From positions 62,001-126,000 of the forward strand of contig JACPDN010000011.1 in NCBI GenBank assembly GCA_016183985.1: a DNA stretch of 64,000 bases, read 5' to 3'. This document shows, one piece after another, positions 52,325 to 63,992 of the stretch (the stretch's first letter is position 1; each line of letters opens with the position of its first letter). The stretch comes from Pseudomonadota bacterium. GTDB taxonomy: Bacteria; Pseudomonadota; Alphaproteobacteria; Dongiales; Dongiaceae. Position numbers and translations under genes: made by a program. The notes beneath the pieces are model-generated. The model saw only the letters and a program-made list of their open reading frames with translations. It searched no databases and had not been told where the DNA came from.

Positions 52325-53014
52325 CTATTTATCGGCACCCATATCCCCGGGCACCCCGTAGGAAGGCGCCGCATCGGGGTTCAACGCACGGGTAATATAG
52401 GCATCCATTTGGGGCTGATAGTCTTCCCAGAGGCGCTTCAGACGGACGATGGGGTTATCGTCGCTCCAATCGACACGAAGGTCGACCAACGGCCAGCTTT
52501 GTTCGTGGACGACGAGGAGCCCTGCAGAATGCACAGGCCCCATCTCACCGCCTGCGACGATGCCGGCTTCAAGCCCCATCAGCAGGCGGTCGGCCAGATG
52601 ACGGCCCTTGGATTGCACGAAGGCCCGCACCATGGTGGCGGGTAGGTTGGAGTTCTGCAGCAGATTACCGGCAGCGACGCAATCCTCACCTTCCGCCACG
52701 TTATTGGTGCCGAGCGTCTTGGCGCCGGTCCAATGCGCCGTGCGCCCCTGCTTGTCGATGATCGTCACCTGGCGGTGCTGCGATGCTGGTGCCTTGGCCA
52801 TCAGGGTCTTCAACGCATCGGGCGCACTCATGCCTTGCGCCAACAGATCGAGGCCCTGATTGCCGAGGCGTGGATCGGTGACATTCTGCGTCGCAACCGC
52901 GCCGACGCCGGCCCTGGCCCAGGGACAGCGCGACGCGACCGCGATCGACGAGGTAGTGATCGCCACCCCGAACATGCCGGTGTCGGCGCAACGGCCGACG
53001 AGCGAGAAGGTCAT
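52325..53014 (-). CDS. DUF1028-family protein
   Basis: 229 residues that match the DUF1028 (PF06267) pattern: TFSLVGRCADTGMFGVAITTSSIAVASRCPWARAGVGAVATQNVTDPRLG, GAKTLGTNNVAEGEDCVAAGNLLQN and LADRLLMGLEAGIVAGGEMGPVHSAGLLVV. The fold is Ntn-hydrolase-like; biochemical function unknown. It is 12 bp downstream of the RidA gene and in one operon with the HpaB-type gene, a setting suggesting a hydrolase for an intermediate of that pathway. Confidence 0.85.
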   Translation of the reverse strand: MTFSLVGRCADTGMFGVAITTSSIAVASRCPWARAGVGAVATQNVTDPRLGNQGLDLLAQGMSAPDALKTLMAKAPASQHRQVTIIDKQGRTAHWTGAKTLGTNNVAEGEDCVAAGNLLQNSNLPATMVRAFVQSKGRHLADRLLMGLEAGIVAGGEMGPVHSAGLLVVHEQSWPLVDLRVDWSDDNPIVRLKRLWEDYQPQMDAYITRALNPDAAPSYGVPGDMGADK

Positions 53015-53026
53015 CCGAGCCCTTTC

Positions 53027-53551
53027 CTACTTCTTGCGAGCAGCCCTCTTGCTGGCCGTCTTCTTGGTGCGATCCACCTTGTCGGCGGTATCCTTCCATT
53101 GCAAAGCGGCGGGCGGCTCCTGGATGTTCTTCATACGACTTTCCGGGATCACCGCATAGGCGTCGATTTCCATGACCCATTCCGGCCGGGCAAGGCCCTG
53201 CACCACCAGGCCGGTCGAAACCGGATACACACCCTTCAGATGTTTGCCGACGACCCGGTAGACATCCTCGCGATAGCGCGGATCGGTGATGTAGATGACG
53301 ATCTTGCAGATATCGGCAAGCTTGCCACCCTGCTCTTCCAGCAGCTGGCGGACATTGCGCATCGCCTGCTCTGATTGCTGGGCAGCACTGCCGACACCCA
53401 CCATCGATCCATCCAGCGCCTGGCCGACCTGGCCGCGCAGGAAGATATGGTTGCCGGCCCTGACTGACATCGAGAGATCGTTGTCGAGGGTCTGTTCAGG
53501 ATAGGTCTTCTTGGTATTGAACTTCCTGAGACGAACGTGGCTGTAGCTCAT
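53027..53551 (-). CDS. RidA-family (YjgF/UK114) protein with basic C-terminal tail
   Basis: About 174 residues from MSYSHVRLRKFN; the stop of the HpaB-type gene is 5 bp upstream. RidA features: NHIFLRGQVGQALDGSMVG, SEQAMRNVRQLLEEQGGKLADICKIVIYITDPRYREDVYRVV, and the terminal WVMEIDAYAVIP. RidA proteins hydrolyse reactive imines or enamines. A Lys/Ala-rich tail of about 35 residues (TKKTASKRAARKK) is unusual for the family. Middle gene of the HpaB-RidA-DUF1028 operon. Confidence 0.87.
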   Translation of the reverse strand: MSYSHVRLRKFNTKKTYPEQTLDNDLSMSVRAGNHIFLRGQVGQALDGSMVGVGSAAQQSEQAMRNVRQLLEEQGGKLADICKIVIYITDPRYREDVYRVVGKHLKGVYPVSTGLVVQGLARPEWVMEIDAYAVIPESRMKNIQEPPAALQWKDTADKVDRTKKTASKRAARKK

Positions 53552-53556
53552 TGTCT

Positions 53557-55023
53557 TCACTTCTTCTTCCATTGATCCATGACGCAGTCTGACAGGCCGG
53601 CGCAATCCTTGACATAGGAGAGTGCGTTCGACATATCGAAATTCATATAGATGTGATTGAGATGTGCAAAGGGCGGCGACTGGGCAAAGAGCTCGAAGGT
53701 CACCATATGCCCGGCACGGTCCGAATTGAGCAGATCGCGCGCGAAGGCCAGCAGCTTGCGGCGATCTTCGGCTTGCCAGAATTCGTTGACCGAATAGTAC
53801 TTTTCCATCCAATCCTTGATTTCCGGATTGTCGAAGGTCGCTTTGTCCGGTGTCACGCAGATCTGGCCGCCGCACAGCTCACGCGCCAGATGCATCATGG
53901 CCGGCAGCTGATTGATGGCGGCATAGCGGCCGGTAAAGAGCAGTGATGAGTTCGGCATCAGCAGGCCGCCCGGACTCTTCTCGGCCATGGTGATGGACGC
54001 GATGAGATGTGCGTTGATCGCCTCACGATACTGCATGAGAAGGGCAAGCTTCTCGCGCACCGCCTGCTGCGCATCAAGCCCGGTCTGCTTGGCATTGAAC
54101 GCTGCCGCCCCCAGCATCATGTCGGCGATATAGAGCAGGCGCAGGGTGAAGGGATAGGCGCTGTAGCGATGCAATGTGCCGCGGATGAAAGCCGCCGCCT
54201 TGGTGTGGCGATAGAACAGCACGTTTTCCCACGGGATCAGCACATCGTCGAACACCAGCAGCGTATCGACCTCATCAGCGCGGTTCGACAGCGGGTAATC
54301 GTCGGCCGAGGCGCGCCCCGTAAAGCCCGTGCGGCAAATATGCTTGAGGCCCGGCGCTCCCATGTCGCAGATGAAACCGACGGCATAATCGCTGAGCTTG
54401 TCGTCACCCCAATTGGCGATGGTGGGCTTCACGAAAGCCTGATTGGCATAGGCGGCGGCCGTCTCATATTTGGCACCGCGCACGATGATGCCCTGGTCGG
54501 TCTCCTTCACCAGATGCAGCAGCATGTCCGGGTCCTGATCCTGCGGCCGCTTGGATCGGTCGCCCTTGGGATCGGTGTTGGCCGAGACATGAAAGGTGTC
54601 CGAGTTGAGGACATGCTGGATGTGATTCTCGATATTCTTCGAGAATTGCGGGTCGACCTCGTTGAGGATATCGCGCCCGTCATAGAGCGACCACATCTCG
54701 CCCACCGTCTCGTCGCCGACGCGCACGGCGTAGCCCCGGATATCGCGCATGACTGCGTCGATGGCGCGGCGCTTGGCGTGCCAGTCTTCCTGCGTGTGCG
54801 GCAGCTTGTAGCCGATGCAGTTTTCCTGTCCCGTCGTCTCATCGCGATAGGACATGACCGATTTGGTCTTTTGCTCATGCGCCATGTCATAGATGCGGGC
54901 ACGCACGTCGACGATCGGCTTGAAGGCCGGATGCGTTGTCACATCCTTCACCTTTTCGCCATTGATCCAGATTTGCCGGCCGTCCTTCAGGCTGTCGCGG
55001 TATTGGGCCCCGGTCCGCAGCAT
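53557..55023 (-). CDS. 4-hydroxyphenylacetate 3-hydroxylase-type flavin monooxygenase, HpaB family
   Basis: About 488 residues from MLRTGAQYRDSLKDGRQIWINGEKV, the classic HpaB start, with AGGGGG upstream; the longer frame is unconserved. It has the acyl-CoA-dehydrogenase-like fold of HpaB/PvcC: GMAHEQ-like YDMAHEQ, TDPKGDRSKRPQDQ, and PWENVLFYRHT. It uses FADH2 from a separate reductase to hydroxylate a phenol or related ring; no reductase gene is adjacent. Divergent from a LysR regulator; downstream RidA and DUF1028 genes complete the operon. Confidence 0.88.
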   Translation of the reverse strand: MLRTGAQYRDSLKDGRQIWINGEKVKDVTTHPAFKPIVDVRARIYDMAHEQKTKSVMSYRDETTGQENCIGYKLPHTQEDWHAKRRAIDAVMRDIRGYAVRVGDETVGEMWSLYDGRDILNEVDPQFSKNIENHIQHVLNSDTFHVSANTDPKGDRSKRPQDQDPDMLLHLVKETDQGIIVRGAKYETAAAYANQAFVKPTIANWGDDKLSDYAVGFICDMGAPGLKHICRTGFTGRASADDYPLSNRADEVDTLLVFDDVLIPWENVLFYRHTKAAAFIRGTLHRYSAYPFTLRLLYIADMMLGAAAFNAKQTGLDAQQAVREKLALLMQYREAINAHLIASITMAEKSPGGLLMPNSSLLFTGRYAAINQLPAMMHLARELCGGQICVTPDKATFDNPEIKDWMEKYYSVNEFWQAEDRRKLLAFARDLLNSDRAGHMVTFELFAQSPPFAHLNHIYMNFDMSNALSYVKDCAGLSDCVMDQWKKK

Positions 55024-55173
55024 TGGTGATCGCCCCCTGTTTAATCCCTGAGCCCTCATTGCTTTGGGGCCCATGCTGGAATCATTGGCATGCATCCAAT
55101 TCGCAATCATCTTGCCCGGCACCTTTGGCAATGAGAAAATATTTTTATCTTTCGAATTGGATCGGATTTATTA

Positions 55174-56079
55174 ATGCCATTTACCCTGAAGCAGCTACGT
55201 TATTTCGTGGCGACAGCCGAAACCGGGTCCGTGACCCTGGCGGCCCAGCGGGTCAATATCTCGCAGCCCTCCGTCTCGGCCGCCATTGCGGAGCTCGAAT
55301 CCCGCTTCGGGGTGGACCTTTTCGTGCGCCATCACGCCCAGGGCCTCAGCCTGACCGCGGCGGGACGCGAGCTATTGACCGATGCCAAGAGCCTGCTCGA
55401 ACACGCTGAAGACGTGCGCCTTGGCGCCATGGGCTTGGGCCAGGATCTTGCCGGCGAACTTCATATCGGCTGTTTTCAGACCGTCGCACCACTGGTTCTG
55501 CCGCGCCTTATCGGCACGTTGACTGCGAGCCACCCCGAAATCAGCGTCAAGCTGCACGAGCATCATGTGCAGGGTGTCCTCGACGGCCTGCGCGCCGGTG
55601 AGTTCGAATTCGCCCTCACTTACGACCTCGGCCTCGATGACGATCTGGAGTTTGAAACGCTGACCGAAGTGCCGCTCCACTGCATCTTGGCGAAAACGCA
55701 TCCGCTCGCCAAACAGAAGGCCACAACCATCGCCGACCTCATCGCCTATCCGATGGTACTGTTGGCCCTGCCGCACAGCCGCGACTACTTTCTCTCCATT
55801 ATCTATGGCTTGGGGTTACAACCCCGCGTCGCCTACGAGACTCCGAATTTTGAAATGGTGCGCGGGCTGGTCGCCAATTCCGACGCCTTCGCCATCATGC
55901 ATTCGCGCCCCAACAGCGAATGGTCGCTGGACGGCGGGCGCTTGGTCTTCCTCCCCATCAAGGACAAGTTGCGCCCGACGCGGCTTGGGCTCGTGCGACT
56001 GAGGAAACTGCGCCCGACCAAGCGCGCAGCCGCTTTTGCCGAGCAATGCCGCCAGCATTTCGCGCGCGAACGTGGTTAA
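55174..56079 (+). CDS. LysR-family transcriptional regulator
   Basis: 301 residues. N-terminal HTH (FTLKQLRYFVATAETGSVTLAAQRVNISQPSVSAAIAELESRFGVDLFVR) followed by the LysR substrate domain (about 90-295; GELHIGCFQTVAPLVLPRLIG, MVLLALPHSRDYFLSI). Divergent from the HpaB operon across 150 bp, the usual layout for a LysR activator and its target. Its ligand would be an aromatic or other pathway compound. Confidence 0.9.
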   Translation: MPFTLKQLRYFVATAETGSVTLAAQRVNISQPSVSAAIAELESRFGVDLFVRHHAQGLSLTAAGRELLTDAKSLLEHAEDVRLGAMGLGQDLAGELHIGCFQTVAPLVLPRLIGTLTASHPEISVKLHEHHVQGVLDGLRAGEFEFALTYDLGLDDDLEFETLTEVPLHCILAKTHPLAKQKATTIADLIAYPMVLLALPHSRDYFLSIIYGLGLQPRVAYETPNFEMVRGLVANSDAFAIMHSRPNSEWSLDGGRLVFLPIKDKLRPTRLGLVRLRKLRPTKRAAAFAEQCRQHFARERG

Positions 56080-56401: not shown

Positions 56402-57952
56402 ATGTCTGTGCCTAGTCATCACGACGAGGACGTAAAAGTCCTCCACTCCATGGGATATTCCCAGGAGCTGTCCCGCCGCATGGGCGGGTTCCAGAACTTC
56501 GCGATTTCATTTTCCATCATCTGCATTCTCGCCGGCGGTATCGGTGCTTACGGTGTCGCGTTCGGCGCCGGTGGCGGCGGCTCGGTCGGTATCGGCTGGC
56601 TAGTCGGTTCTTTCTTTGCTCTCGTCGTTGCTGCGGCGATGGGCCAGATCGCATCCGCCTATCCGACCGCAGGCGGCCTCTATCACTGGGGTTCGATCCT
56701 CGGCGGTCGCGGCTGGGGTTGGGCCACGGCCTGGATCAATCTGCTCGGCCTGCTCTTCGTTGTCTCCTCGGTGAACTATGGCGTCTATCTGCTGCTGCGT
56801 GACCTCGTTCTGGTCGGCATCTTCGGTATGGATGCCGAGAGTTTCACCGGCACCCATTTGGTCATCGCGGTGGTTCTCATCACGCTGACGCAGGCCTATC
56901 TGAATTACGCGGGCATCAAGGTGACCACGATCCTCACCGATTTCTCGGGCTATCTCATCCTGGGTACGGCCGTGATCCTGATCGCGGGCTTCCTGTTCGG
57001 CTCGTCCGTGCCGCTCGACTTCTCGCGCATCGTCACCTTCACCAACAATACCGGTGAACCAGGCGCTAACATGTGGCCGCAGACGGGCAGCCTGTTCTTT
57101 GCCTTTGTCCTCGGCCTGCTGCACGTTTGCTACACCATCACCGGCTTCGATGCTTCCGCACATACTTCGGAAGAGACCCGTGATGCGCAGCGCGCCGTGC
57201 CGCGCGGCATGCTGACGTCGGTGTTCTGGTCGGCGGTGTTCGGTTGGCTCCTCGTTGTCGCCGTGTTGCTCGCCATGCCCGACACCGCGGAAGGTGCCAA
57301 GCAGGGTTGGTCGGTGTTCTACTGGACGCTTGATTCGACCAGCCTGCCGGCTTGGCTGAAGAGCCTCCTCGGCGTCGCGATCGTTGTTGCGAACTATCTG
57401 TGCGCTCTGGCAGGCATGACCTCGCTTTCGCGCATGATCTATGCGTTCGCGCGCGATGGTGGCATTCCGGGCGCATCGAAGTTCCTGCGCCAGGTCAGCC
57501 CGAAGCACCGCACGCCCGGTGCGGCGATCTGGGTTGGTGCCGCACTCTGCCTCGTTCTCGGCTTGCTCGCCGGCAACAACGAAAAGGCCTACATCATCCT
57601 GGCGTCGGGCTGCGCGGTGTTCCTCTACGTTTCCTACATCATGCCGATCGGCGCCGGCCTCTTCGCCGAAGGCAAGACCTGGACCAAGAAAGGGCCATTC
57701 CAACTCGGTGTCTGGTCGAAGCCGATCGCCGTCGTCGCCATCATTGGCGGCGCCATCCTCGCCTTCGTCGGCTTCCAGGAGCCCTATCAGCTCGTCGGTG
57801 AATTCCTTTTGGGAACCATCGTTGCGCTGGTCGTGATCTGGTTCGCCTTTGAAAAGAGCCGGTTCCCTGGCCCGCCGCTCACTGAAGCGGACGTGAAAGC
57901 GCGTCAGGCGGAAATCGCCAAGGAAGAAGCGGCGCTGGGTGGCGCTGGCTGA
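56402..57952 (+). CDS. APC-superfamily amino acid/amine permease
   Basis: 516 residues from MSVPSHHDEDVKVLHSMGYSQELSRRMGGFQNFAISFSII, with GAGGGGG upstream. About 12 membrane helices. The first-helix signature FAISFSIICILAGGIGAYG, YPTAGGLYHWGSIL, and ITGFDASAHTSEETRDAQRAVPRGM are typical of the GABA/choline (BAT1-Uga4-like) transporter branch. It imports an amino acid, GABA or amine. It ends at a strong terminator, and the glycine-riboswitch gene set follows, so it could feed that pathway. Confidence 0.9.
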   Translation: MSVPSHHDEDVKVLHSMGYSQELSRRMGGFQNFAISFSIICILAGGIGAYGVAFGAGGGGSVGIGWLVGSFFALVVAAAMGQIASAYPTAGGLYHWGSILGGRGWGWATAWINLLGLLFVVSSVNYGVYLLLRDLVLVGIFGMDAESFTGTHLVIAVVLITLTQAYLNYAGIKVTTILTDFSGYLILGTAVILIAGFLFGSSVPLDFSRIVTFTNNTGEPGANMWPQTGSLFFAFVLGLLHVCYTITGFDASAHTSEETRDAQRAVPRGMLTSVFWSAVFGWLLVVAVLLAMPDTAEGAKQGWSVFYWTLDSTSLPAWLKSLLGVAIVVANYLCALAGMTSLSRMIYAFARDGGIPGASKFLRQVSPKHRTPGAAIWVGAALCLVLGLLAGNNEKAYIILASGCAVFLYVSYIMPIGAGLFAEGKTWTKKGPFQLGVWSKPIAVVAIIGGAILAFVGFQEPYQLVGEFLLGTIVALVVIWFAFEKSRFPGPPLTEADVKARQAEIAKEEAALGGAG

Positions 57953-57980
57953 TATCCACAACACATCAACAAACGATCTG

Positions 57981-58016
57981 GGGAGGCAGTGCAAACTGCC
58001 TCCCTTTTTCGTTTTT
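57981..58016 (+). terminator. Strong intrinsic terminator after permease
   Basis: Perfect 10-bp stem GGGAGGCAGT / ACTGCCTCCC with a GCAA loop, followed by TTTTTCGTTTTT. It isolates the permease from the riboswitch-controlled unit. Confidence 0.93.
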
Positions 58017-58064
58017 CAGCTTGACGTTTCAACGGGGCAATCACACACTCCGCGCGCAAAATTC

Positions 58065-58261
58065 CCGACCCCGGGAGAGACCGGCACTTAGCAAAAGATG
58101 TCGGCGCCGAAGGAGCAACCGCCCCCGGAAACTCTCAGGCAAAAGGACCAGGGTCGGAGCCATCATCTCTGGAAAGCGGGCGCCGGACGTCGTCGCCTCA
58201 CCGACGGAGTAAACTGGTTCTCCACCAGTGAATCTCTCAGGTCTCAAGGACAGAGGGGGGC
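58065..58261 (+). ncRNA. Tandem glycine riboswitch (two aptamers)
   Basis: First aptamer 58065-58157: P1 CCGACCC / GGGTCGG enclosing GGGAGAGACCGGCAC, CGCCGAAGGAGCAA, and CTCTCAGGCAAAAGGAC, the hallmark glycine-aptamer strings. Second aptamer about 58158-58261: CACCGACGGAGTAA, the ACTGG/CCAGT hairpin and CTCTCAGGTCTCAAGGACAG. The two lie in tandem as in cooperative glycine switches. It precedes the glutamine-synthetase-like gene at 58401. Possible expression-platform hairpins are CCGGCC/GGCCGG (58265-58285) and CCCGACGTCGGG (58297-58308). No U-run follows, so control may be translational or Rho-linked. Confidence 0.93.
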
Positions 58262-58264
58262 TGA

Positions 58265-58308
58265 CCGGCCAGGATCATCGGCCGGCCGCTAGCCAACCCG
58301 ACGTCGGG
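58265..58308 (+). promoter_or_regulatory. Expression-platform hairpins downstream of glycine riboswitch
   Basis: A CCGGCC / GGCCGG stem with a 9-nt loop and then the self-complementary CCCGACGTCGGG lie between the aptamers and the ribosome site AGGGGG (about 10 nt before ATG 58401). Which alternative pairings respond to glycine cannot be settled without folding. Confidence 0.45.
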
Positions 58309-58400
58309 GAGCCGCTTTAAAATACCTTTCCGCCCAAGTTGCCGCCGCATTCCGCGCGGCCTAAATTCTATAAATCATCTCGAACAGGGGGTTCATAAAA

Positions 58401-59774
58401 ATGCCGTTGAAACCGGAACAAGTTAAAACCATTGCGCAGGCCAAGAAGATCGTCGAAGAGCGTGGCCTCACGCACATTAAAGTCGGCGTGTTCGATGGTG
58501 ACGCCATCCTGCGCGGCAAGTACATGTCGAAGGCGAAGTTCTTTTCCGCCCTCGAAGGCGGCTTCGGCTTCTGCGACGTGGTGCTGGGCTGGGACAACCA
58601 GGACCAGTTGATCGACGGCTTGAACTATACCGGCTGGCACACGGCCTATCCCGACGCCTGGGCGCGCATCCTGCCGGAGACCTGCCGCGACCTGCCGATG
58701 GAAGACAACGGCCTGTTCTTCATCTGCGAATTCGTGAACAAGGCAGAAGAGATCTGCGCGCGCGGTACGCTCCGCCGCGTGCTTGACCGTGCCGCGAAGA
58801 TGGGCTTCGATGTCTATTCGGCACTCGAGTTCGAATTCTTCATGTTCGACGAAACGCCGGAAAGCGTCCGCGAGAAGAACTACAAGAATTTGACCCCCAT
58901 GACGCCGGGCTGGTTTGGCTATTCGGTCATCCGCAACTCGGTCTGGTCCGAGCTCTACCAGGACATTCTCGACATGTGCGAAAAGATGCGCATGCCGATC
59001 GAAGGTCTCCACACCGAGACCGGCCCGGGCGTGCTCGAAGCGGCGCTTGGCGTCTGCTCGGCGCTCGAAGCCGCCGACCGTGCGGCCCTGTTCAAGACCT
59101 TCATGAAGGTACTGGCGCAGCGCCGCGGCCTGATGGCGACCTTCATGGCGAAATGGTCGAACTCCTATCCCGGCCAGTCGGGCCACATCCACATCTCGCT
59201 CAAGGGCAAGGATGGCAAGGCTGTCTTCCACGATCCGAAGAAGCCGCACAACATCTCGGACAAGATGCGCTGGTTCATCGGCGGTCAGCAGACCTTGATG
59301 CCGGAAGTCCTCGGCATGGTGTCGCCGACGGTCAACTCCTACTCGCGTCTTATCCCCGGCTTCTGGGCACCGACCAACGCCACCTGGGGTATCGAGAACC
59401 GCACCTGTGCCTTGCGCGTCATCCCGGGTTCGGAGAAGTCGCAGCGCGTCGAGTACCGTATCGCCGCCGCGGATTGCAATCCGTACCTGGCGCTCGCCGC
59501 CTCGATCGGCTCCGGCCTCTACGGCATCGAGCACAAGATCGAGCCGCAGGCTGCCATCGTCGGCAATTCCTATGAGATGAAGCACCCGGCCAAGCTCGAT
59601 CTGCCGCAGACCCTGTGGGAAGCGGCGCAGCGCCTCCGGAAGTCGAAAGCCGCCCGTGATCTCTTCGGCGACGCCTTCGTCGAGCATCATGCCGGCACCC
59701 GCGAGCACGAGGAGCGCGAGTTTAGGAAGCACATCACCGATTGGGAACTTTCCCGCTACTTCGAAATCATCTGA
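58401..59774 (+). CDS. Glutamine-synthetase-like gamma-glutamyl ligase under glycine riboswitch control
   Basis: 457 residues, GlnA fold. ALEFEFFMFDE, TETGPGVLEAAL, GQSGHIHISL, WGIENRTCALRV and QRVEYRIAAADCNPYLALAASIG are catalytic/nucleotide motifs. The N-terminal part contains VLGWDNQDQLIDGLNYTGWHTAYPD, which differs from both GlnA and the PuuA-like protein at 12205, and there is no adenylylation motif. It likely glutamylates an amine rather than ammonia. A tandem glycine riboswitch upstream and an aldehyde dehydrogenase downstream suggest a pathway related to glycine or its precursors (for example ethanolamine via gamma-glutamylglycine). That substrate is a hypothesis. Confidence 0.85.
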   Translation: MPLKPEQVKTIAQAKKIVEERGLTHIKVGVFDGDAILRGKYMSKAKFFSALEGGFGFCDVVLGWDNQDQLIDGLNYTGWHTAYPDAWARILPETCRDLPMEDNGLFFICEFVNKAEEICARGTLRRVLDRAAKMGFDVYSALEFEFFMFDETPESVREKNYKNLTPMTPGWFGYSVIRNSVWSELYQDILDMCEKMRMPIEGLHTETGPGVLEAALGVCSALEAADRAALFKTFMKVLAQRRGLMATFMAKWSNSYPGQSGHIHISLKGKDGKAVFHDPKKPHNISDKMRWFIGGQQTLMPEVLGMVSPTVNSYSRLIPGFWAPTNATWGIENRTCALRVIPGSEKSQRVEYRIAAADCNPYLALAASIGSGLYGIEHKIEPQAAIVGNSYEMKHPAKLDLPQTLWEAAQRLRKSKAARDLFGDAFVEHHAGTREHEEREFRKHITDWELSRYFEII

Positions 59775-59785
59775 TCCGTCATCAA

Positions 59786-59829
59786 GGCGCCCGCATCTTT
59801 TCGCCAGGATGCGGGCGCCGCCTCTTTTC
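59786..59829 (+). terminator. Terminator/attenuator between GS-like and aldehyde dehydrogenase genes
   Basis: Perfect 12-bp stem GGCGCCCGCATC / GATGCGGGCGCC followed by CCTCTTTTCT. The next start codon is 21 bp away, too close for a separate promoter, so the hairpin probably limits but does not stop transcription into the aldehyde dehydrogenase. Confidence 0.7.
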
Positions 59830-59850: not shown

Positions 59851-61242
59851 ATGGCCGCTACCCAGAAGACCATTTCGCCGGTCGACAATTCGGTTTACGT
59901 CGAACGCCCCTACAACACGCCGGCAGAAATCGCGGCCGCATTGAGCCTCGCCGCGAAGGCACAGAAGGAATGGCGCAAGACCTCAATCGCCGAGCGCGCC
60001 AAGATCCTCAACCGCTTCGTCGATGAGTTCCTCAAGGACAAGGACAAGCACGCCACCGACATCACGAAGCAGATGGGCCGCCCGATCTCACAGAGCCCCT
60101 TTGAGATGCGCGGCTTCGAGGAACGCGCCCGCTTCATGATCAATCTGGCGCCGGAAGCCTTGGCCGATGTTTCCTTCACCGACAAGCCGGGCTTCATCCG
60201 CGTACTGCATCGCGAACCGCTCGGTGTCGTGTTCATCGTGGCCCCCTGGAACTATCCCTATCTCACCTCGGTCAACGGCGTCGTCCCGGCGCTGATGGCC
60301 GGCAATGCGGTGATCCTGAAGCATTCGGCCCAGACGCCGATCTGTGCCGAGGATTTCCGACAAGCGCTCGACGCCGCCGGCCTGCCCAAGGGTGTCTTTC
60401 AGACCCTCGTCCTCACCCATGACGACACGGCCAAGGTCATTGCCGCCCCAGAAGTCGCCTATTGCAACTTCACTGGCTCGGTCAGCGGCGGCCATGCCGT
60501 GCAGCAGGCGGCTCTTGGCAAATTCATGGGCCTCGGCCTCGAGCTGGGTGGCAAGGATCCGGCCTATGTCCGCGCCGACGCCAATCTCGCCCATGCGGTC
60601 GAGAACCTGGTCGATGGTGCCATGTTCAATTCCGGCCAGTGCTGCTGCGCCATTGAGCGCATCTATGTGCACGAAAGCCTCTACGACAAGTTCGTCGAAG
60701 GCTTCGTCGATCTAACCAAGGGTTACAAGCTCGGCAACCCGCTCGACACGGCGACCAATCTCGGTCCGATGGTCCGCACCTCGGCCGCTGAATTCGTGCG
60801 CGGGCAAATAGCGGACGCCGTGCGCCAGGGCGCCAAGGCGCTCATCGACACTAAGGCTTTCACGGCCGACAAGGCCGGTACGCCTTACCTCGCCCCGCAG
60901 GTGCTGGTGAATGTCGATCACTCGATGTCGGTGATGTCGGAAGAAAGCTTCGGCCCCGTCATCGGCATCATGAAAGTGAAGAATGACGACGAGGCCGTGA
61001 AGCTGATGAATGACAGCAAATACGGCCTGACAGCAGCCCTATGGACCTCCGATGCCGATGCCGCGCGCAAGATCGGCAATGAGATCGAGACCGGCACCGT
61101 CTACATGAACCGCTGCGACTATCTTGACCCCGCCCTCGCTTGGGTCGGCGTGAAGGATTCTGGCCGCGGTGCAACATTGTCCCGCGTCGGTTATGAAATG
61201 CTGACCCGGCCGAAATCGTTCCACTTCCGCACCCAGATCTAA
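59851..61242 (+). CDS. Aldehyde dehydrogenase
   Basis: 463 residues. Catalytic set: N134 in APWNYPYLTS, E231 in LELGGKDP, and C265 in FNSGQCCC; cofactor strand NFTGSVSGG. This is an NAD(P)-dependent aldehyde dehydrogenase of ordinary length, somewhat like succinate-semialdehyde or betaine-aldehyde enzymes in the GGHAVQQAA region. GAGGA lies before the ATG. In context it would oxidise the aldehyde formed from a glutamylated amine or an amino alcohol. Follows the GS-like gene through an attenuator hairpin. Confidence 0.92.
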   Translation: MAATQKTISPVDNSVYVERPYNTPAEIAAALSLAAKAQKEWRKTSIAERAKILNRFVDEFLKDKDKHATDITKQMGRPISQSPFEMRGFEERARFMINLAPEALADVSFTDKPGFIRVLHREPLGVVFIVAPWNYPYLTSVNGVVPALMAGNAVILKHSAQTPICAEDFRQALDAAGLPKGVFQTLVLTHDDTAKVIAAPEVAYCNFTGSVSGGHAVQQAALGKFMGLGLELGGKDPAYVRADANLAHAVENLVDGAMFNSGQCCCAIERIYVHESLYDKFVEGFVDLTKGYKLGNPLDTATNLGPMVRTSAAEFVRGQIADAVRQGAKALIDTKAFTADKAGTPYLAPQVLVNVDHSMSVMSEESFGPVIGIMKVKNDDEAVKLMNDSKYGLTAALWTSDADAARKIGNEIETGTVYMNRCDYLDPALAWVGVKDSGRGATLSRVGYEMLTRPKSFHFRTQI

Positions 61243-61258
61243 GCCGCCAAAGAATGTC

Positions 61259-61341
61259 GTCATGCCCGGGCTTGATCCGGGCATCCACTCTCTCAACAGC
61301 ACCAGTGGATCCCCGGGTCTTCGCCCGGGGATGACTTTTTT
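61259..61341. repeat. Alphaproteobacterial intergenic palindromic repeat, with terminator-like end
   Basis: Two hairpins (ATGCCCGG/CCGGGCAT and ATCCCCGGG/CCCGGGGAT) are flanked by an outer inverted repeat GTCATGCCCGGG / CCCGGGGATGAC and end in TTTTTT. This is the layout of the dispersed 'GTCATGCCCGGGCTTGATCCGGGCATCCA' class common between genes of Alphaproteobacteria. Only one copy is in the window. It may end transcription after the aldehyde dehydrogenase. Confidence 0.75.
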
Positions 61342-61422: not shown

Positions 61423-62778
61423 TTGACCGATACCAATCATGCCCAAGTGGTGATCATTGGCGGCGGGGTGGTGGGCTGTGCCCTCTTCCGCCGCTTCTCC
61501 ATGAGCGGTCTGCGGCCCGTGCTGCTCGAGGCCGGTGGCGACATTCTTTCCGGTGCATCGAAGGGCAACAGCGCCCTCCTCCATACCGGCTTCGACGCGC
61601 CGCACGGTTCGCTGGAGCTTTCCTGCATGCAGCAGGGCTATCGCGAATATCTCGCCATCCGTGAGAAACTCAATCTGCCACTGGTGAAATCCGGCGCCAT
61701 CGTCGTTGCCTGGAATGACGAACAGATCCAGAAACTGGATGAGATCGTCGCCAAGGCGCATGCCAACAACGTCGGCGAAGTGACGCGGGTCGATCGCGAA
61801 CAGTTGCGCAAGATGGAACCCCTGCTCTCGCCAAAGGCGCTGGCCGGCGTCCACGTCCCGGGCGAACACATCATTGATCCCTGGTCCGCGCCTCTTGCCT
61901 ATGTGCGCCAGGGGCTCGCTCATGGCGGCATCGTCCTGCGAAATTGCCGCGTCACCGGCGGGCATTTCAACGGCGTCTGGCATCTGGAGACGAGCCAGGG
62001 CGAGATCACGGCCGATCTCGTCATCAATGCCGCCGGCAATCAGGGCGACATCATCGAAGCCATCAATCGGCCGGCACCGTTCAAGATCACACCGCGCAAG
62101 GGCCAGTTCGTCGTCTTCGACAAGCCGGCGGCGCGATTGGTGAAAGCCATCATTCTTCCTGTGCCGACCGAACGGACCAAGGGCGTCGTCATCTGCCGCA
62201 CGGCCTTCGGCAATCTGCTGGTGGGCCCCACGGCCGAGGATCAGGAAGACCGCATCCACGCCGCCGTCGATGAAGCGGCGCTCCGCCAACTCGTCGCACG
62301 TGGTGTCGAGATGCTGCCGGGCCTCGCCAATGTCGACGTCAGCGCGGTCTATGCGGGCCTGCGTCCCGCGACCGAGTTCAAGGACTACCAAATCACGGCG
62401 CAACCGGATCGACGCTGGATCACGGTCGCCGGTATCCGCTCGACCGGCCTCACCGGCGCGCTCGGCATCGCTCAGCATGTGGCAGGTCTTTACGCGGCGA
62501 GCTTTGGGCGCCTCAACGAAATGGAGCCGATCTGGACGCCGGTCCCCAATCTTTGCGAGGAGAATACGCGCCCCTATCAAAGCCCACTCGGCGCCGACAT
62601 CGTCTGTCATTGCGAATGGGTGACCCGCGGTGAAATCGTGGCGGCGCTGGCGGGCGATTTTCCAGCCGGCGATGTCGGGGGGCTGAAGCGCCGCACGCGT
62701 GCCATGATGGGTCGCTGCCAGGGTTTCTATTGCAGCGCCCATGTCATGGCCTTGGCTGAAGGGAAGATCGCGTCATGA
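61423..62778 (+). CDS. FAD-dependent oxidoreductase with C-terminal BFD [2Fe-2S] domain (GlpA/HcnC-like)
   Basis: About 451 residues from TTG 61423, selected because AGGGGA lies about 10 nt upstream; the earlier ATG reads through the palindromic repeat. DAO-fold N-terminus (AQVVIIGGGVVGCALFRRFS), middle GLRPATEFKDY and GIRSTGLTGALGIAQHV, then a BFD iron-sulfur domain with C-x-C (VCHCEWVTRGEI) and C-x4-C (RCQGFYC). This layout is that of GlpA, the flavoprotein subunit of anaerobic glycerol-3-phosphate dehydrogenase, and of related amine/amino-acid dehydrogenases. Its stop overlaps the partner gene (ATGA). Confidence 0.88.
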   Translation: MTDTNHAQVVIIGGGVVGCALFRRFSMSGLRPVLLEAGGDILSGASKGNSALLHTGFDAPHGSLELSCMQQGYREYLAIREKLNLPLVKSGAIVVAWNDEQIQKLDEIVAKAHANNVGEVTRVDREQLRKMEPLLSPKALAGVHVPGEHIIDPWSAPLAYVRQGLAHGGIVLRNCRVTGGHFNGVWHLETSQGEITADLVINAAGNQGDIIEAINRPAPFKITPRKGQFVVFDKPAARLVKAIILPVPTERTKGVVICRTAFGNLLVGPTAEDQEDRIHAAVDEAALRQLVARGVEMLPGLANVDVSAVYAGLRPATEFKDYQITAQPDRRWITVAGIRSTGLTGALGIAQHVAGLYAASFGRLNEMEPIWTPVPNLCEENTRPYQSPLGADIVCHCEWVTRGEIVAALAGDFPAGDVGGLKRRTRAMMGRCQGFYCSAHVMALAEGKIAS

Positions 62779-63992
62779 AGACCCATGACGTCGTCATCCT
62801 CGGCGCCGGCCCGGCCGGCCTTTCCGCTGCGGCCGAACTGAAGCGGCTCGGCCACCGTGATATCGTCATCCTCGACCGCGAAAGCCAGGGCGGCGGCATC
62901 CCGCGTCATTGCGGTCACACGGGTTATGGCCTGCTGCAATTCGGTCGCCTGATGACCGGTCCCGATTTTGCCAAGCGCCTCGTTGATCAAGTCTCCGATC
63001 TCGATCTGCGCCTCGGCCATACAGTGCTGAAGCTGGAGCCTAACGGCCGCATCCAGACCACCGGACCCAACGGACCGGAGACCTTCCAGGCGCAAAAAAT
63101 CCTGCTCGCCATGGGTGCCCGCGAAACGCCGCGCAGCGCGCGGCTCGTCTCCGGCACGCGTCCCTGGGGTGTCATGAATACCGGGGCCTTGCAGCAATTC
63201 GCCTATCTGCATGGCAAGGCGCCATTCCAGCACCCGATCGTTATCGGCACTGAACTCGTTTCCTTTTCGACCCTGCTGACTCTCGGTCATGTCGGTGTGA
63301 AGGCTGTCGCGATGCTGGAAGCGCACGCGCGCATCACGGCGCGGCGCCCCGCCGATTGGGTGGCACGCATTGCCTTCGGCGTGCCGGTCCTCACCGGCTG
63401 CAGCGAATTCACCATTCGCGGGCAAGGCAAAGTCGAAGGCGTCACTTTCAGGCGTCACGGTCGCGAACGCGTCCTGGAGGGTGACGGCATCATCTTCACG
63501 GGCCAATTCCGGCCCGAAACCGGTTTGCTGACGCAAAGCCATCTGGAGCTTGATCCCGGTACCCGCGGCCCGGTGATCGACCAGCTGTATCGCTGCACCG
63601 ATGCCAGCTATTTTGCCGCCGGCAACCTGCTGCGCGGCATTGAGACCGCCGGCCAATGCTATCGCGAAGGCAAATCGGCAGCCCATGCGATTCACGCGGC
63701 ATTGGACGATACCTTGCCGGCGTCGGCCGCACCAATCCGCATCGAGGCGACCGGTGCCCTGAGCTATGTCTATCCACAGCGCCTCACCGGTCGCGGCCCC
63801 TACGACCCGCTGCTCTTCAAGGCCCGTGTCGGTGAGGCCGTCAAAGGCACCTTGCGAGTCCTGGCCGACGGACGCGAGATCTGGTCCCGCCCCATCAACG
63901 CCCTGCCCGAGCGGCGCATCGCCTGGCGCGTGCCGGCCGTCGACCTCAGCAACACGCACCACCTCACCATCGATCTCACGCCGCGCAGCTAG
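62775..63992 (+). CDS. FAD/NAD(P)-binding oxidoreductase, HcnB-like partner subunit
   Basis: 405 residues of the pyridine-nucleotide-disulfide oxidoreductase fold: HDVVILGAGPAGLSAAAELKRLG, GGGIPRHCGHTGYGL, LAMGARETPRSARLVSGTRPWGVMNTGALQQF and the final FAD motif CTDASYFAAGNLLRGIETAGQCYREGKSAA. This is the HcnB/opine-oxidase A/GlpB-neighbour type, acting as a heteromer with the DAO-type subunit encoded just upstream (ATGA overlap). A small DUF1667 gene often follows such pairs; the window ends 8 bp after this stop, so it cannot be checked. Confidence 0.88.
   Translation: MKTHDVVILGAGPAGLSAAAELKRLGHRDIVILDRESQGGGIPRHCGHTGYGLLQFGRLMTGPDFAKRLVDQVSDLDLRLGHTVLKLEPNGRIQTTGPNGPETFQAQKILLAMGARETPRSARLVSGTRPWGVMNTGALQQFAYLHGKAPFQHPIVIGTELVSFSTLLTLGHVGVKAVAMLEAHARITARRPADWVARIAFGVPVLTGCSEFTIRGQGKVEGVTFRRHGRERVLEGDGIIFTGQFRPETGLLTQSHLELDPGTRGPVIDQLYRCTDASYFAAGNLLRGIETAGQCYREGKSAAHAIHAALDDTLPASAAPIRIEATGALSYVYPQRLTGRGPYDPLLFKARVGEAVKGTLRVLADGREIWSRPINALPERRIAWRVPAVDLSNTHHLTIDLTPRS

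Follow-up and report, generated by a model that had tools for sequence, protein, structure and literature searches.

A tandem glycine riboswitch in front of a likely ethanolamine gamma-glutamylase gene in the Dongiaceae

In the literature consulted, the genes given as targets of glycine riboswitches belong to glycine cleavage, glycine transport and serine metabolism or are serC, malate synthase and COG4198 genes. Glycine is also, together with glutamate, the end of a pathway proposed for Streptomyces and Chromohalobacter salexigens (PMC6529630, PMC9397018), whose listed parts are PF00120, PF00171, an iron-dependent dehydrogenase of PF00465 and a hydrolase of PF05013 (PMC9397018). In Streptomyces coelicolor, GlnA4 (SCO1613) is a gamma-glutamylethanolamide synthetase with a proposed route to glycine, and phosphorylethanolamine induces the same set of enzymes in Phaeobacter (PMC10132767). 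This report concerns a stretch of 64,000 nt (the window; positions 62001-126000 of contig C1) from a 4.65 Mb genome of the family Dongiaceae in 16 contigs, in which a tandem glycine riboswitch occupies the 5' leader position of a gene resembling glutamine synthetase (GS) and likely encoding an ethanolamine gamma-glutamylase. The nearest named relative by GS (97%) is a Dongia mobilis metagenome-assembled genome. Below, G labels denote genomes (the window's is G000), L labels denote GS loci with their surrounding DNA, and the family is the Dongiaceae.

The tandem riboswitch and the ligase gene behind it

The elements around the switch are the following.

57980-58005, +: intrinsic-terminator-like hairpin with a T run, 3' of a permease gene (terminator scans)
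58021-58049, +: putative promoter TTGACG-17-CACACT, immediately 5' of the riboswitch (read from the sequence)
58062-58160, +: glycine aptamer 1 (RF00504, 66.9 bits, E 1e-11, whole-window scan)
58162-58263, +: glycine aptamer 2 (RF00504, 51.3 bits scanned alone; 55.8 bits at 58159-58263 in the genome scan)
58255-58309, +: conserved leader element, a hairpin from a G6 run to AACCC followed by the palindrome CCCGACGTCGGGG; possible expression platform (five-leader alignment, folds)
58401-59774, +: GS-like gamma-glutamyl-amine ligase, predicted ethanolamine gamma-glutamylase (457 aa; PF00120, 336 bits)

Both aptamers exceed the RF00504 gathering score of 32 bits. The second does not appear in the whole-window RF00504 table, probably owing to its two-base overlap with the first. 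The GS start lies 137 bases beyond aptamer 2 on the same strand. The original prediction, made from the sequence, had placed two glycine aptamers before a GS-like gene, and the RF00504 search bears it out, with the aptamers at 58062-58263 and the gene from 58401.

The protein encoded behind the switch has the GS fold and does not look like an ammonia-using enzyme. Its best NCBIfam match by score is GlnA (TIGR00653), at 226.6 bits against a cut-off of 429, and gamma-glutamylputrescine synthetase PuuA (NF045547) scores 175.3 bits against a cut-off of 650. At the flap position, the alignment places PGFWAP, with Trp322, opposite PGYEAP of GS 8oow; the catalytic flap glutamate is thus replaced, and the tryptophan is found in 98/98 aligned rows, a set in which the window and some genomes are each counted two times. 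Nine motif residues of presumed function are invariant in the same 98 rows. The flap glutamate (E327 in Salmonella) is required by ammonia-using GS, and gamma-glutamylating enzymes carry other residues there, W296 in PauA7 and F331 in the model of GlnA4 (PMC6529630). An ordinary glutamine synthetase and PuuA were considered as identities and ruled out by the NCBIfam cut-offs and the flap residue.

The genomic context of related genes was surveyed by tblastn around 80 GS loci; some of these are short contigs, and the counts are lower bounds. An aldehyde dehydrogenase (ALDH) accompanies GS in at least 66 of them, an iron-dependent alcohol dehydrogenase (Fe-ADH) in at least 61, both in at least 56 and an amidotransferase in at least 30. 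An Eat-like, TRAP or APC transporter is present in at least 30 in all: an Eat-like permease in 16 (five 73-100% identical to the Eat protein of L062, the rest 35-41%), a TRAP ethanolamine-binding protein in 11 and the APC permease of the window in four. The L062 Eat protein exceeds the cut-off of the ethanolamine permease family TIGR00908 (546 vs 382 bits), and the TRAP proteins of L007 and G001 match PDB entry 4uab with E-values of 1.3e-149 and 1.2e-134, an entry that is Csal_0678 with ethanolamine (PMC12410723). In G001, which belongs to the same genus as the window, the gene order is LysR, TRAP permeases, TRAP protein, riboswitch, GS and ALDH, and the switch therefore lies there between an ethanolamine-type transporter and GS. 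EutB, the ethanolamine ammonia-lyase of the canonical eut pathway, has no match in the genome of the window, whereas the E. coli control was positive.

Taken together, the family context, the flap, the TRAP match and the published pathways point to conversion of ethanolamine to glycine as the most likely function. The original proposals that the ligase is an amine gamma-glutamylating enzyme and works in a gamma-glutamyl pathway linked to glycine, with GlnA4 as precedent, are supported by the missing flap glutamate, the context of the 80 loci, the match of the G001 TRAP protein to 4uab and the published pathways. The ordinary ammonia-using enzyme that the original prediction had named as the contrary outcome is spoken against by the NCBIfam score and Trp322.

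Linkage and ancestry of the switch

The order-wide search covered 17 genomes, all of one family. Comparison of riboswitch and GS coordinates shows that the two are linked in 10 of the 17. The switch stands directly 5' of GS in G000, G001, G002, G003 and G006, and 1.2-1.3 kb 5' of GS, with an AraC gene between them, in G009, G012, G013, G015 and G016. The AraC protein of L007 is GbdR-like (NF052371, 141 bits against a cut-off of 480), the intervening AraC protein of G012 is only 39% identical to it, and the genome of the window has no close copy (best 31% identity). At the search threshold, GS was not found in G008 and G011.

When the ten linked switches are aligned, their cores are invariant, and six of the 42 predicted pairs are changed on both sides with pairing kept; these two-sided changes are limited to P2- and P3-type helices, since in place of the textbook P1 helices RNAalifold drew a helix spanning both aptamers. 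In 10/10 GS-linked switches, CTTGAC recurs at the same upstream place together with a box that ends in ACT, and CTTGAC also stands 5' of the gcvT switch of G000.

Among the 80 GS loci, a home-made aptamer-1 model found the switch (E < 0.01) at four, L005, L006, L007 and L011, all of the family of the window; part of the model's input came from the window, L011 and the genome of L007, which match by construction, and the four are apparently the same genomes as G003, G015, G009 and G016, respectively, and not independent cases. Weak matches were obtained at L043 (E 0.37) and L034 (E 0.56). A further 33 GS loci, five of which are the family's switch-less loci and 25 of which are short stretches around GS, included none with a switch at E < 0.01 and one weak match, L127 (E 0.28). 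In class-wide scans of 385 genomes, GS was present in 61 and a glycine riboswitch in 221. One of these genomes, G086, has two glycine aptamer matches on one strand, 1.3 kb apart (C70:473-561 and C70:1816-1904), which are perhaps two riboswitches flanking one gene.

The genome of the window contains one further tandem pair, at C13:1317188-1317430, about 57 bases 5' of gcvT. The 'not gcvT' of the original prediction accordingly holds only for the copy in the window. When 28 tandem switches are placed in a tree (10 GS-linked, 17 gcvT-linked and one before a serine ammonia-lyase-like gene, only G056 coming from outside the family), the ten GS-linked switches form one clade (0.851) among the family's gcvT-linked switches; the sequences are short and the support values modest. 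This placement makes it likely that the GS switch arose by a single duplication of the family's gcvT switch. In G056, a second tandem glycine riboswitch (L130, 7333-7515) precedes a gene that, named by eye, is L-serine ammonia-lyase-like, a serine-metabolism target.

Proposed control and competing explanations

The reading that we consider quite probable is that the tandem glycine riboswitch is the leader of a likely ethanolamine gamma-glutamylase gene, senses the glycine end product of the pathway and sets its committing step. The sequences directly show the aptamers and how these are conserved and linked, the family of the enzyme, its non-ammonia flap and the family context; ethanolamine as substrate, glycine binding and regulation are what we infer from them. 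The switch, probably copied from the gcvT switch of the family and provided with its own promoter-like box, would precede a ligase converting ethanolamine, glutamate and ATP to gamma-glutamylethanolamide. The Fe-ADH encoded 28 kb downstream would convert this product to gamma-glutamyl-aminoacetaldehyde, the ALDH encoded 3' of GS would yield gamma-glutamylglycine, and a putative hydrolase would release glutamate and glycine. Glycine would then bind the tandem aptamers and change the expression of the committing ligase, and the sister switch would set glycine cleavage.

Several points weigh against this scheme. Fe-ADH is not encoded in the cluster of the window: the lone homologue of the genome lies at C1:149748-150893 (61% identity), and the 4 kb around it hold no recognised pathway gene. 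Within the stretches examined, Fe-ADH is present in 7 of 14 family loci and was not found around the GS genes of G001 and G005. There is no clear gamma-glutamylglycine hydrolase in the genome, the best match reaching 40.6 bits with the L062-type amidotransferase as the only query, and some GS-like glutamylases can have a broad substrate range (PMC11335346). The enzymes MED193_10046, Csal_0679 and SCO1613 were likened to that of the window by their description. GS lacks a nearby switch in five of the 15 GS-bearing family genomes (G004, G005, G007, G010 and G014), as confirmed with the home-made model. Terminator-like hairpins stand 3' of both GS and ALDH; as they separate GS, ALDH and the flavoprotein genes further downstream, position behind the switch is certain only for GS. 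In the leader, the candidate alternative pairing of CCCGACGTCGGGG with aptamer 2 is equalled by 152 of 1000 letter shuffles. When the aptamer helices were forced in folds (limited to P3 in aptamer 1 and to P1 and P3 in aptamer 2), the predicted exposure of the ribosome site stayed flat in 5/5 direct leaders, the GS start of G000 being misplaced in this test. The minimum-energy folds of the five direct leaders also differ among themselves, and given the differing folds, the flat exposure and the matching shuffles, no expression platform is claimed. Finally, product induction fits awkwardly with a pathway that supplies glycine.

The leader holds further features between aptamer 2 and GS. Its hairpin at 58255-58309 shows in G002 a two-sided change, CCGGC/GCCGG vs CAGGC/GCCTG, and is followed in the five leaders by an invariant palindrome-like CCCGACGTCGG; the element could be an RNA structure or a protein site. 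At 58339-58367 lies a TTGCCG-17-TAAATT box, a possible second promoter, which at the same time forms an inverted repeat (GCCGC...GCGGC). A strict consensus scan of 57900-58500 returned no sigma-70 promoter, the TTGACG-17-CACACT box included.

As regards the sign of control, we lean towards an ON switch, that is, product induction together with gcvT. It is favoured by the gcvT ancestry and by the AraC-type leaders, in 5/5 of which the forced helices raised ribosome-site exposure (the G012 AraC start being guessed). The same parts could work with the opposite sign: glycine would repress, as plain feedback on a glycine-supplying pathway and as proposed for glycine transporters. This OFF arrangement, which fits the physiology of glycine supply and the tendency of uptake genes to be OFF and degradation genes to be ON (PMC6944388), is a real possibility, to which we give clearly less than even weight; the switch groups with the gcvT-linked switches of the family, and the exposure test speaks against it in the AraC-type leaders, although it did so in 0/5 direct leaders and in four of the six gcvT leaders tried, the other two showing a decrease (17 gcvT-type leaders were at hand, and the G002 gcvT start was misplaced). 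The riboswitch might also be a relic of duplication without control of GS, the gene being driven by an internal promoter near 58339-58367. The TTGCCG-17-TAAATT box and the direct leaders without exposure change agree with a relic, yet the core is invariant in 10/10 switches while several helices covary, the promoter-like box 5' of the switch is kept in 10/10, and the strict promoter scan counts equally against both boxes; we consider a relic improbable.

Other explanations concern the substrate. Behind the same switch, the GS-like enzyme might glutamylate another amine that touches glycine (sarcosine-, alaninol-, serinol- or aminoacetone-like), with oxidation by the flavoproteins and an FGGY kinase encoded downstream. 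In 9 of 14 family loci, the genes after ALDH are those of a flavoprotein pair and an FGGY kinase instead of Fe-ADH, the first flavoprotein resembles GlpA and glycerol-3-phosphate (G3P) oxidase, and some GS-like glutamylases are broad, as noted above (PMC11335346). Against this, the GS of the window shares 65 to 69% identity with GS genes beside a TRAP protein or an L062-type Eat permease, G001 and G005, of the same genus and with GS 88% identical, carry a TRAP transporter of the ethanolamine type and lack a flavoprotein module within the stretch examined, and the genome retains one pathway-type Fe-ADH; another amine as substrate therefore appears unlikely. That an ordinary ammonia-assimilating glutamine synthetase stands behind a glycine riboswitch by chance is highly improbable: the PF00120 fold and GlnA as best match by score are what such an enzyme would show, but 226.6 bits is far under the cut-off, the flap glutamate is Trp in every aligned row, and the gene context is catabolic.

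Under the favoured reading of a glycine-sensing leader of the ethanolamine ligase gene, a wider arrangement can be tentatively put forward, on which we place somewhat less than even confidence: a two-operon glycine riboswitch regulon in which the duplicated ON switch would give product induction of the ligase and of glycine cleavage, the same switch standing in other genera before a GbdR-like regulator. If so, lipid-headgroup nitrogen and one-carbon units would be drawn straight through glycine, and one RNA would have persisted through a change of its direct target between regulator and enzyme.

Neighbouring genes and comparison with known systems

The other genes and hairpins of the locus are listed below.

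56402-57952, +: APC-family permease that may take up ethanolamine (start placed by homology with L006; open reading frame from 56252)
59786-59819, +: terminator-like hairpin in the GS-ALDH gap (terminator scan)
59851-61242, +: aldehyde dehydrogenase, predicted gamma-glutamyl-aminoacetaldehyde dehydrogenase (PF00171, 418 bits; homologue in 66/80 GS loci)
61309-61332, +: terminator-like hairpin in the ALDH-flavoprotein gap (terminator scan)
61423-62778, +: FAD oxidoreductase (DAO) with a BFD [2Fe-2S] domain, GlpA/G3P-oxidase-like (start inferred; open reading frame from 61342)
62775-63992, +: second FAD oxidoreductase, pyridine-nucleotide-type (4-base overlap with the preceding gene)
64015-65433, outside the window: glycerol-kinase-like FGGY gene, after the second flavoprotein gene

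The ALDH gene and flavoprotein pair announced 3' of GS are thus in place. At the position of the APC permease, G001 and G005 encode a TRAP transporter (binding protein and permeases), and an Eat-like permease is found there in some other loci. The terminator scan gave 10 terminator-like sites, compared with 7.0 on average in shuffles. A stable hairpin like that of the window also occurs in the GS-ALDH gap of G006 and G003; speaking against such a separation, the GS and ALDH reading frames of G002 are just 7 bases apart. In G004, a genome without the riboswitch, this gap holds a long hairpin (L126, 9505-9703; -104.6 kcal/mol over 199 bases), perhaps an inserted repeat. Between ALDH and the first flavoprotein gene, GC-rich inverted repeats (ATGCCCGGGCTTGATCCGGGCATCC...) occupy 61255-61332; we take them to resemble dispersed repeats of Alphaproteobacteria.

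The flavoprotein pair is found in 9/14 family loci and in three of the 80 loci, all three belonging to the family. Together with the FGGY kinase, it may oxidise gamma-glutamylethanolamide, process the glycerol moiety of glycerophosphoethanolamine or have no connection with the pathway. That the cluster serves mainly glycerol metabolism was considered and rejected, since a GlpK above its cut-off is encoded elsewhere (C4:49687, 710.6 bits), and the FGGY gene after the pair (419.3 bits) is therefore a paralogue. A search for other G3P-oxidase-like genes gave 19 matches, none of them above the cut-off and that of the window being the best. Upstream of the permease gene, genes for a DUF1028 protein, a RidA-like protein and an HpaB-family flavin monooxygenase (52325-55131, -) diverge from a LysR gene (55174-56079, +). 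In 11/14 family loci, HpaB and LysR occur alongside GS, and the complete set is also present in L056, titled Kiloniellaceae; it may be a linked catabolic module. In L121, L123 and L124, all with the AraC arrangement, a 2-hydroxyglutarate-oxidase-like flavoprotein is encoded some 6 kb 5' of GS.

While riboswitch class, enzyme family and pathway had each been described before, their pairing would give a known riboswitch a new target and, unusually, one that in related genera begins with an AraC regulator gene. In the literature searched, supplements and most subscription papers aside, no pairing of a glycine riboswitch with ethanolamine glutamylation was found. The pairing would link a glycine sensor to the catabolism of ethanolamine, a lipid headgroup, provide a likely sensor of the end product for the gamma-glutamylation route and, through the position of the switch, lend indirect genetic support to the view that this route truly ends in glycine. 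A ligase of amine catabolism would join the targets of glycine riboswitches, as would a transcription factor in related genera.

Among known systems, the gcvT tandem glycine riboswitch resembles that of the window in its two RF00504 aptamers in tandem and the CTTGAC box upstream, and the gcvT switch of the same genome in particular has the same ACAGAGGGGGG end; it differs in that the switch of the window precedes a GS-like gene (in the family's other genera, AraC and then GS). The AraC protein of these genera recalls GbdR, the AraC regulator of choline metabolism, although the L007 protein scores far under the GbdR cut-off. The pathway proposed for C. salexigens is approached through the family TRAP proteins, which match the Csal_0678 structure. 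In the Phaeobacter MED193 pathway (EtoVWX-ETAGA-GAADDH-GETADH), whose cluster is described with an RpiR regulator (PMC10132767), the likeness is with L076 and L079, where the order is TRAP permeases, TRAP protein, GS, ALDH and Fe-ADH. The window, in contrast, has an APC permease in the place of that transporter and its Fe-ADH gene 28 kb away, and adds the flavoprotein pair, the FGGY kinase and the glycine riboswitch. GlnA4 of S. coelicolor, for which the protein EpuRI is the described regulator (PMC6529630), shares with the enzyme of the window a replaced flap glutamate, although the residue is Phe331 (in a model) in GlnA4 and Trp here.

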